A stretch of 64,000 nt of DNA, from the NCBI GenBank assembly GCA_944325635.1, contig CALVBD010000001.1, positions 434,001 to 498,000 of the forward strand, written 5' to 3'. The first letter of the stretch is position 1. Every line of letters starts with the position of its first letter. The position numbers were made by a program, and so were the translations under genes. The notes beneath the pieces were generated by a model. It did not search any database. It saw only the letters and a program-made list of their open reading frames with translations, and was not told where the DNA came from. Positions 3,163 through 52,673 of this stretch are shown here, piece by piece. This DNA comes from Candidatus Gastranaerophilales bacterium (GTDB lineage Bacteria; Cyanobacteriota; Vampirovibrionia; Gastranaerophilales; Gastranaerophilaceae).

Positions 3163-3870
3163 AAAATTTTACCACGGATAATCGTCTTTAATCTCCCACC
3201 CGTCCGTTTGAATTAAAGCCCCGCATGTTCTACTTGCAATAGTACCTGCAGATCTGTTACAAGTGCTTAAATAATCATTTCTATCCTTTTGATTGTTAAG
3301 AGTATAAAAATAAACAAGGTTACTGTTTCTAAAAAATCCAATGATACAGAAAAGATCTTTCCCTGTTACATTCGGTTTCTGTTTTCCATTTATGTCAAAA
3401 AATATAACAACATAAAATTTGGTTGCATCATCACCTCCAATATTTATATACATTATTGCACCATCAGCAAGTTCGAAAATTCTTATTTTGTTAGAAGAAT
3501 GAAAAGTATTAGCATCAGAATCAATTTGTCCATTTAAGGAATTCAGGCATACCCGCATTTTTCGGGCTTGTAATACCAAAATCTTTTATTATTTTAAAAT
3601 AAGGTTTAATATAATTATCTATAAAATAATTTAATGCTAATTCTTGTTCTGAATCTCCATAACTCTGTAAATAAGATAGCATTACAACTCCGTCCGGATC
3701 AGTTTCAGCCTGAGCCAAACGAAAAGCTTGCATTGTTAGAGTATAGTATTTTTTTAATTTTGTAACAGTTACCTGCTTCTGATGGTTTTGCAGTATCGAC
3801 GGAAGCGTCATTGCTGCAACTACGCCTATAATTCCAAGAGTAATTAAAACTTCCGCTAATGTAAAACCCG

Positions 3871-3969: not shown

Positions 3970-3980
3970 CCCCCCCCCCC
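3970..3980 (-). repeat. G11 homopolymer, putative phase-variation tract
   Basis: Eleven consecutive G on the minus strand, 30 bases after the ATG at 4010. Only two such runs occur in the window and both are in prepilin leaders. In-frame translation needs 10 or 13 G. Confidence 0.85.
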
Positions 3981-13719: not shown

Positions 13720-14391
13720 ATGAACAAAAATGCATTTACATTAGCGGAAGTGCTGATTACTCTTGGCATAATCGGTATTGTAGCAGCACTGACACTGCCT
13801 GCAATAACTGCTAATACAAGAAAAAAAGAAGCATCCACCAGGTTAAAAAAATTTTACAGTACTATGCAACAGGCAATTATGCGCTCAGAAGTCGATAACA
13901 GTGAAAGTATTTACTGGAACAAAACAGCAGAAATTAAAGATGAAACTGGGACATCAGATCAGACTGCAAATGCTGAAGAAAGCGAAAAATTTTTCTATTC
14001 GTATATAGAACCGTATATCAAGTATATACAAATAAAGAAAAAAACTAACGATGAAGCAGATAAAGACCTAACATTTGAACTAAAAGTTACAATGGCGGAT
14101 GGAACAACTATGTACTGGCATAACGGAAGCTGCATAGACATGACTATAGATGTTAATGGTGACAGAAACCCGAATAAATCAGGATATGACCGATTTACAT
14201 TTCTACTGTGCATGGAAAATGCAGCAGAAGGTCACTGTGGCGGGAATAAACACTTTTGCTCATATATACCAGCAAAAGCACAGACAAGAAAAGAAGCTCT
14301 CAGCCGATGTAAAACAACCCCGGCTTATTGTTCTACCTTACTTCTTTATGATGATTGGGAGTTTAAAGACGATTATCCATACAGAATTTAA
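13720..14391 (+). CDS. Type IV prepilin-like protein (intact)
   Basis: A 223-residue prepilin with a 5-residue leader, MNKNA^FTLAEVLITLGIIGIV, where the +5 glutamate and hydrophobic helix are clear. The globular part is cysteine-rich and carries DVNGDRNPNKSGYDRF (about 144-159) and the C-terminal DDWEFKDDYPY, both shared with the other two prepilins of this window. It is probably exported and processed by a prepilin peptidase as a pilin or pseudopilin. AGGAGG lies six bases before ATG. Unlike its relatives it has no G tract. No pilus assembly genes are nearby. Confidence 0.85.
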   Translation: MNKNAFTLAEVLITLGIIGIVAALTLPAITANTRKKEASTRLKKFYSTMQQAIMRSEVDNSESIYWNKTAEIKDETGTSDQTANAEESEKFFYSYIEPYIKYIQIKKKTNDEADKDLTFELKVTMADGTTMYWHNGSCIDMTIDVNGDRNPNKSGYDRFTFLLCMENAAEGHCGGNKHFCSYIPAKAQTRKEALSRCKTTPAYCSTLLLYDDWEFKDDYPYRI

Positions 14392-51492: not shown

Positions 51493-51525
51493 AAAAAGCC
51501 TGCTAACATAAAGCAGGCATTTTTA
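51493..51525. terminator. Bidirectional terminator
   Basis: AAAAAGCCTGCT and AGCAGGCATTTTT (one bulge) between the small gene and the prepilin. Confidence 0.8.
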
Positions 51526-52243
51526 TTACCAAGGGTAATCTTCTTTAAACTCCCAATTATCAAACTTCTGCAACAATACTGCACAACGGTTCTTAGAAGT
51601 CTTGCATAATGACAGCGCTTGGAATCTGGTTGAATAAGAGCTGTTGCTAGCTATCTCTGAACTCATCATCGGCTTGTTGTTTTTATAACAAAAGAAAAAC
51701 GTAAACATGTCTTTCCCGTAGGCATTTGGCTTTCTATCACCATTTGAATCAAAATAAATATCAAAACAAGAACCCATCTTTAATCGCATAGAAGAACCGT
51801 CCGGGAAATATACTTGAGGTAACGCTCCGACAATAGGCTTTCCATCAGGGCCTTCTCCAGGAGTTTGCCCTTCTGTCAACTTTAAAATTTTTAAATGTGG
51901 AAGCAGATATGAGTTAAAAATATTTACAGCCTCTTTATTGTATTTTTCATAATCATAATTGCCATTTTCATCAAGAATATACTCCTCTTTTGCCCAGTAT
52001 CTCGGATCGCCATGTTCGCTTTGTGCTGCTAATATTGCCTGATTCATTACCGAATAAAATTTCTTTAATCTGACTGTGGTTTCTAACTTTTGCTGCTTTT
52101 GGATAAGAGCCGGCAATGTCATCGCAGCAACCACGCCTATTATTCCTAATGTTATTAATACTTCTGCAAGCGTAAATGCAGGTTTAAACTTAGAAGGATT
52201 CTGCCCCCCCCCCCGTAAATTCAGTCATAGCAATGGTTTTCAT
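51526..52243 (-). CDS. Type IV prepilin-like gene, phase-OFF (G11 tract in leader)
   Basis: The real start is ATG 52243 (MKTIAMTEFTGGG...), with AGGAGG seven bases upstream and a consensus promoter. The G11 tract (52214-52204) then shifts the frame to a stop after four more codons. With 10 G the leader joins QNPSKFKPA^FTLAEVLITLGIIG, giving a prepilin of about 238 codons ending in DNWEFKEDYPW. The mature part is open and intact to its stop at 51526, unlike the copy at 3169. It carries DSNGDRKPNAYGKDMF (about 165-180). It is a candidate for slipped-strand on/off switching of a pilin. Confidence 0.8.
52204..52214 (-). repeat. G11 homopolymer, putative phase-variation tract
   Basis: Eleven consecutive G on the minus strand, about 29 bases after ATG 52243. 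It sits in the prepilin leader before the cleavage site. Reading frame needs 10 or 13 G. Confidence 0.85.
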
Positions 52244-52268
52244 ACTTATACCTCCTTTGTTATATTTA

Positions 52269-52297
52269 ATTATAACAAATTTACCTGGTTATTTCAA
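52269..52297 (-). promoter_or_regulatory. Promoter of the second G-tract prepilin
   Basis: TTGAAA (52297-52292), a 17-base spacer and TATAAT (52274-52269), the same hexamers and spacing as the other G-tract prepilin. It overlaps the dgkA stop. Confidence 0.75.
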
Positions 52298-52298
52298 G

Positions 52299-52673
52299 TT
52301 AAACCAAAGCCAACAGCTCCGGAATAAATATTAAACCGCCGATTATAACTGCAATAATCGTCACAAACATCACCGCACCTGCCGATATGTCCTTAGCCAT
52401 ACCAACCATTTTAGAGTATCTATTATGAAAAATTGCATCTAGAGAAAATTCAATAGCAGAATTCAGCATCTCTGCCGCCACAACAAGCCCTATCGCTAAT
52501 AACAGTACACTGATTTTTAACGCGCTGAATTCAAGTACAAAACCTAAGATAAGAACGAATATTGCCGCAACAAAATGAATTCTGATATTTCTTTCGCTTT
52601 TTAATACAATTCTCATACCTTTGCGCGCATTTTTGAAGGTATTTCCAAATCCTTGAGACTTAAATTTACTCAT
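52299..52673 (-). CDS. dgkA: Diacylglycerol/undecaprenol kinase family protein
   Basis: A 124-residue membrane protein with three spans. The motif AAEMLNSAIEFSLD (about 65-78) holds the catalytic glutamates and asparagine of the DgkA family. In organisms with the pgpH-ybeY-dgkA order it is usually the undecaprenol kinase type. It overlaps ybeY by 4 bases. The start is preceded by ybeY sequence with GGGGGAAG. Confidence 0.92.
   Translation of the reverse strand: MSKFKSQGFGNTFKNARKGMRIVLKSERNIRIHFVAAIFVLILGFVLEFSALKISVLLLAIGLVVAAEMLNSAIEFSLDAIFHNRYSKMVGMAKDISAGAVMFVTIIAVIIGGLIFIPELLALV

Follow-up and report, generated by a model that had tools for sequence, protein, structure and literature searches.

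A poly-G tract in a prepilin leader as a probable phase-variation gate resting OFF in a Gastranaerophilales bacterium

A prepilin gene on the reverse strand of the window (the whole 64,000-nucleotide stretch of DNA analysed here) carries eleven consecutive G residues in its leader. The best explanation for this tract, to which we assign a probability of about three in four from sequence analysis, is a slipped-strand translational phase-variation gate with a selected OFF resting length. Ribosomes would start at ATG 52243, and the G count would set the fate of translation. Eleven G would represent the resting OFF state, in which translation stops four codons past the tract; at 10 or 13 G, the ON lengths, ribosomes would go on to translate the prepilin leader and then the pilin. 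Since the gate precedes the predicted prepilin-peptidase site, the mature pilin would be identical whenever it is made. Selection may keep nearly all such gates in the OFF frame with an early stop, few pilins would be made at any time, and single-base slips would recruit further ones. We infer that tract lengths change in the DNA at a high rate and that ON cells make the pilin; the benefit would presumably lie in surface pili that are varied against phage, immunity or attachment sites.

Layout and product of the gated locus

The genome (2,009,151 bases in 13 contigs) is that of a cyanobacterial relative living in the gut and belongs to the Gastranaerophilales, near Candidatus Scatousia. At the target locus, all of whose elements lie on the reverse strand, a promoter-like TTGAAA-N17-TATAAT element (52269–52297; TTGAAA 52297–52292, 17 nt, TATAAT 52274–52269), recognised solely by its match to the consensus, adjoins a gene at 52299–52673. 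From the open reading frames, we take this gene to be dgkA-like and to be preceded by ybeY-like and HD-domain membrane protein genes. The ribosome binding site of the leader, AGGAGG (52251–52256), stands 7 nt 5' of ATG 52243. Ten codons separate this ATG from the G11 tract (52214–52204), which begins 29 nt after it. As assembled, the leader frame (52190–52243) reads ATG...ACG GGG GGG GGG GCA GAA TCC TTC TAA and encodes the 17 residues MKTIAMTEFTGGGAESF, with the TAA stop (52192–52190) four codons past the tract. The earlier note had described the promoter, the ribosome site, the tract about 29 bases into the leader and the stop four codons beyond it, and direct reading of the sequence finds each of them as described.

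The note had further claimed that 10 or 13 G lead into an intact prepilin frame, and translation agrees. At either length, a 238-residue frame opens, in which MKTIAMTEFTGGGQNPSKFKPA and FTLAEVLITLGIIG meet at the predicted prepilin-peptidase site and which ends in NWEFKEDYPW; downstream of the tract it is intact to its TAA (51526–52203). With 12 G, translation stops after 29 residues, so that one tract length in three yields the full prepilin frame. The G11 tract lies 5' of the predicted cleavage junction, which bears out the proposal that switching would leave the mature pilin unchanged. An alternative start with its own ribosome site, which the note had weighed as a counter-indication, is absent from the relevant stretch: a scan from the tract to FTLAEV found no ATG, GTG or TTG in the pilin frame, and the first in-frame candidate, GTG 52134, lies within the membrane helix and lacks a ribosome site. 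An intrinsic-terminator-like sequence (GCCTGCT..AGCAGGC TTTTT, 51493–51518) lies 3' of the pilin stop.

The pilin frame matches TIGR02532 above its cut-off (21.3 against 16.3 bits) and PF07963 just below it (20.3 against 21.2), and the prepilin N-terminal motif with the invariant E5 is present. The predicted mature pilin (FTLAEVLITLGIIG...KEDYPW, 216 residues, 51529–52176) is modelled by AlphaFold with a long N-terminal helix (residues 4–55), a second helix and a four-stranded sheet, at a mean pLDDT of 82. Its profile match to solved pilins is confined to the N-terminal helix, and a Foldseek search of the PDB with the model returned no match, head domain included. One prepilin peptidase gene, above the PF01478 cut-off, is found in the genome (C4:99280-99672).

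The window has a GC content of 35.7%, and its runs of G or C reach at most 5 apart from two, both exactly 11 long. Windows of eight G occur 8 times, against 0.26 expected in shuffled sequence. The low GC content, the shorter runs elsewhere and this excess together argue that the G11 tract did not arise by chance. A second gated prepilin of the window (L040, reverse strand) has G11 at 3970–3980 in the leader MENVVIARNFGGGGK, which ends at a stop, would be ON at 10 G, and has its pilin motif at 3840–3865. The window also holds an ungated prepilin on the forward strand (13735–13760), with the short ordinary leader MNKNAFTLAEVLI.

Gated pilins in the genome and the family

We inspected the genome in stretches around G tracts and prepilin motifs. 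It contains 51 tracts of at least nine G, most of them exactly 11 long, and the majority are held by a repeated leader, RBS-MKTI(D/A)MT(G/E)FTGGG, in front of a prepilin. By strict criteria there are at least 36 fused prepilin gates, and the layout of ribosome site, leader, tract and stop recurs at 35 loci besides the target. With about 92 prepilin motifs in the genome, the gated share is roughly 40% or more. Among 40 inspected motifs without a long tract, most have an ordinary leader of 4–8 codons and their own start.

Some tracts belong to other genes, named here by reading of their frames. In L097 (C5:55724), 12 G precede a Stealth-like sugar phosphotransferase in frame; in L048 (C1:691938), 11 G stand before a glycosyltransferase-like frame, one G off; and in L033 (C1:99927), 17 G stand before a secreted-protein-like frame, likewise one G off. 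At L031 (C1:29972 and 30948), two tandem gene copies carry G11 and G10 in the same coding stretch.

Of the 124 family genomes that were sampled, 67 contain one or more instances of the pattern of a ribosome site, an ATG, 19 to 40 nt and at least nine G, against 1 of 22 genomes from other families of the order, with a reversed control near zero. In Candidatus Scatousia excrementigallinarum, the closest named relative in our search, a pilin 81% identical to the target likewise lies behind G11, one base off ON. Leader sequences differ completely between genera. As far as the pattern search goes, the genera thus share the design and not the leader sequence. The leader was also considered as a conserved functional peptide, which we rejected, as synonymous change is not in excess except modestly in the relative G009. 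Given this lack of amino-acid conservation, similarity among leaders may be merely copied DNA, and the loci are not fully independent. In three relatives (G012, G024, G052), the spacers of 70–220 codons between tract and pilin resemble interspersed repeats (SGSGAGMT, CHSELVSESLN), yet are open in the pilin frame.

Near-identical paralogues that differ by one G, ON beside OFF, occur within single genomes (G052, G068 and G009). At L325 of G009, the leader is one base shorter and the tract has 12 G, which leaves the resting frame unchanged. By sequence comparison, such paralogue differences attest to length change on an evolutionary timescale and not among the cells of one culture. Loss of mismatch repair was considered as a cause of high slippage and rejected, since MutS1 and MutS2 are both present. 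Since assemblies break at repeated leaders in any case, contig ends at tracts were not taken to indicate mixed lengths.

Three loci of the genome itself look like fixed derivatives of gated loci when their tracts are compared: L190 (C1:611630-612630) has a prepilin leader with G7 in the ON frame, and at L180 (C1:343050-344050) and L202 (C3:33100-34100) the tract is broken by A or T and the OFF frame is held. The latter two, together with the truncated gated pilin L106, would fit a scenario in which the gated pilins are decayed or permanently silenced. Yet nearly all of them keep long intact frames of 148–294 codons, open from the tract onward, and of the explanations weighed here we give decay the slimmest chance. 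The 64 loci whose pilin lies at least 40 codons from the tract comprise 6,556 ON-frame codons with zero stops, against about 434 stops in each of the other frames; these loci were chosen as open, yet they make up 64 of the 73 candidates without their own start.

Resting length and reading frame

The earlier note read the target as phase-OFF, and this reading has proved general, with OFF as the rule: 2 of the 36 gates in the genome, L093 and L102, are ON (P=8e-5 against an expectation of one third). The 139 fused gates of 11 genomes comprise 90 at +1 (one G too long), 28 at -1 (one too short) and 21 that are ON. The corresponding binomial probability, P(<=21 | 1/3)=1e-6, assumes independent loci and is weakened by shared leader ancestry, which makes permutation the safer test. 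When lengths were permuted within genomes, 31.5 ON gates were expected against the 21 observed (P=0.0004), and the common phase was expected 79 times against 101 observed (P<0.0002). By both measures, tract length follows the frame of its locus. Under free drift, a third of the gates should be ON; a bias this strong towards OFF calls for a further, selective cause.

These permutations bear directly on the possibility of an assembly or sequencing error, in which the true tract would have 10 G and the gene would simply be on. Runs of 11 G are prone to errors, and the genomes seem for the most part to have been assembled from metagenomes. A sequencer, however, is blind to the reading frame, and the lengths nevertheless match the frame within genomes. 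Leaders of this genome that need 11 G for ON carry 12 or 10, never 11, and the OFF excess recurs across separately assembled genomes. We therefore regard error as highly unlikely.

The main rival to a DNA-level gate is RNA-level slippage or, more broadly, programmed recoding. Here, the DNA length would be fixed, and constant low pilin expression would come from RNA polymerase slippage or ribosomal frameshifting at the G tract. A resting phase of mostly +1 in most genomes would suit such a mechanism, as would the early stop kept in the resting frame and the constancy of length, with 29 of 41 leader tracts in this genome at exactly 11 G. The resting frame usually stops soon after the tract, at a median of 0–7 codons depending on the genome, and all three stop codons occur; in this genome the stops are TAG 16, TAA 8 and TGA 4 times and mostly fall at the third codon past the tract. 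The direction of the shift, however, is not conserved: most genomes call for +1, 10 of the 13 G033 loci for -1, and G068 for a mixture of the two, although slippage at the RNA level gives both directions. Within one genome, moreover, loci of ON and of OFF length occur side by side and have almost the same leader. On balance we consider recoding unlikely, while giving it more weight than any other alternative.

It is also conceivable that the G run serves primarily as a DNA structure from which recombination among the pilin copies is initiated, with the frame effect secondary. A G4 upstream of gonococcal pilE starts recombination of this kind, 11 G barely suffice for a two-layer quadruplex, and the leaders of a genome resemble one another as though they had spread by copying from locus to locus. 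This scenario leaves the frame-length matching, the resting stop and the attenuator design described below unexplained, and the tract is found on every copy, not on one expression locus; we consider it very improbable.

The slipped-strand design proposed in the earlier note thus gains support from comparative sequence analysis: the gate occurs at least 36 times in the genome and in many relatives, its length is co-adjusted to the frame, the ON frames are free of stops, and near-identical paralogues differ in G count.

A second leader design and known systems

In a second design (type B), the leader is not fused to the pilin. In G009, the leader with 11 G stops 11 nt past the tract; some 145 nt further on lies the pilin, equipped with a ribosome site and an ATG of its own. 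Each of the 27 loci has CCTCCG at exactly 39 nt past the tract, and folding predictions pair this element with the pilin Shine-Dalgarno sequence. The predicted probability that the latter is unpaired is 0.01; shuffled sequences give 0.39, and blocking of the leader side, as ribosomes would do, raises the value to 0.77. One G added to the resting length takes the leader through the CCTCCG element in nearly all 27 loci. Four loci of G005 and L045 of our genome use other pairing sequences or frames but share this logic: one alternative frame crosses the pairing element. In G005, the predicted effect on the Shine-Dalgarno sequence is weaker, and the start codon region is paired in three of the four loci. 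Examples with an anti-Shine-Dalgarno or anti-start element are L255, L258 and L335 in G009, L045 in our genome, and L263 and L275 in G005. G005 also has an intrinsic-terminator-like hairpin between leader and pilin.

The folding predictions suggest that type B leaders act as a slippage-controlled translational attenuator set by tract length. In attenuators of the ermC type, a short leader open reading frame is followed by an anti-Shine-Dalgarno element that pairs with the Shine-Dalgarno sequence of the next gene, and drug-stalled ribosomes serve as the switch. Type B leaders share the short leader frame and the anti-Shine-Dalgarno element acting on the next gene, but their switch would be tract length instead of drug-stalled ribosomes. 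A limited literature search found no such combination of tract length and translational attenuation. If true, this would add a new mechanism of gene control by a homopolymer. More broadly, we give even odds to the proposal that, throughout the family, much of the type IV pilin repertoire is controlled by poly-G gates whose resting length is a single base away from ON. Such gates would come in two designs, one with the leader fused to the pilin and one in which an attenuator frees the pilin start, and each cell would display a few of its dozens of pilins.

Poly-G phase variation of pilus genes is known from pilC1/pilC2 of Neisseria gonorrhoeae, which have a G9–G15 tract near the 5' end (Jonsson et al. 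1991, via PMC5320596). Their frame sets ON or OFF, and the length varies between strains and in reads (PMC5320596). The gates described here resemble them in that a pilus gene has a poly-G tract near its 5' end and the frame would decide its state. However, pilC1/pilC2 are two pilus-associated genes without a repeated leader, for which no OFF rule is reported in that source, whereas here dozens of pilin genes are concerned. Neisseria opa genes are not pilins and vary through pentamer (CTTCT) repeats at about 11 loci per strain (PMC5320596). The poly-G contingency loci of Campylobacter peak at 9–10 G, with a median of about 20 tracts per C. jejuni genome, and their ON share is described as close to the neutral expectation in a large set (PMC6321876). 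Both there and here, poly-G tracts are spread through an AT-rich genome, mostly within open reading frames; here, the peak is at 11 G, mostly one gene class is affected and ON is strongly depleted. Scale, gene class and OFF bias differ from these systems. Our search of the open-licence literature retrieved nothing on phase variation in Gastranaerophilales or any other Melainabacteria.

If our reading is right, a common gut lineage has one of the larger slippage-gated gene sets of a single class. The set would be aimed at one surface organelle, and selection for OFF would be visible in assemblies. Automatic annotation would then lose or truncate dozens of pilins in every genome, and an occasional copying slip should be enough to turn on an individual pilin.
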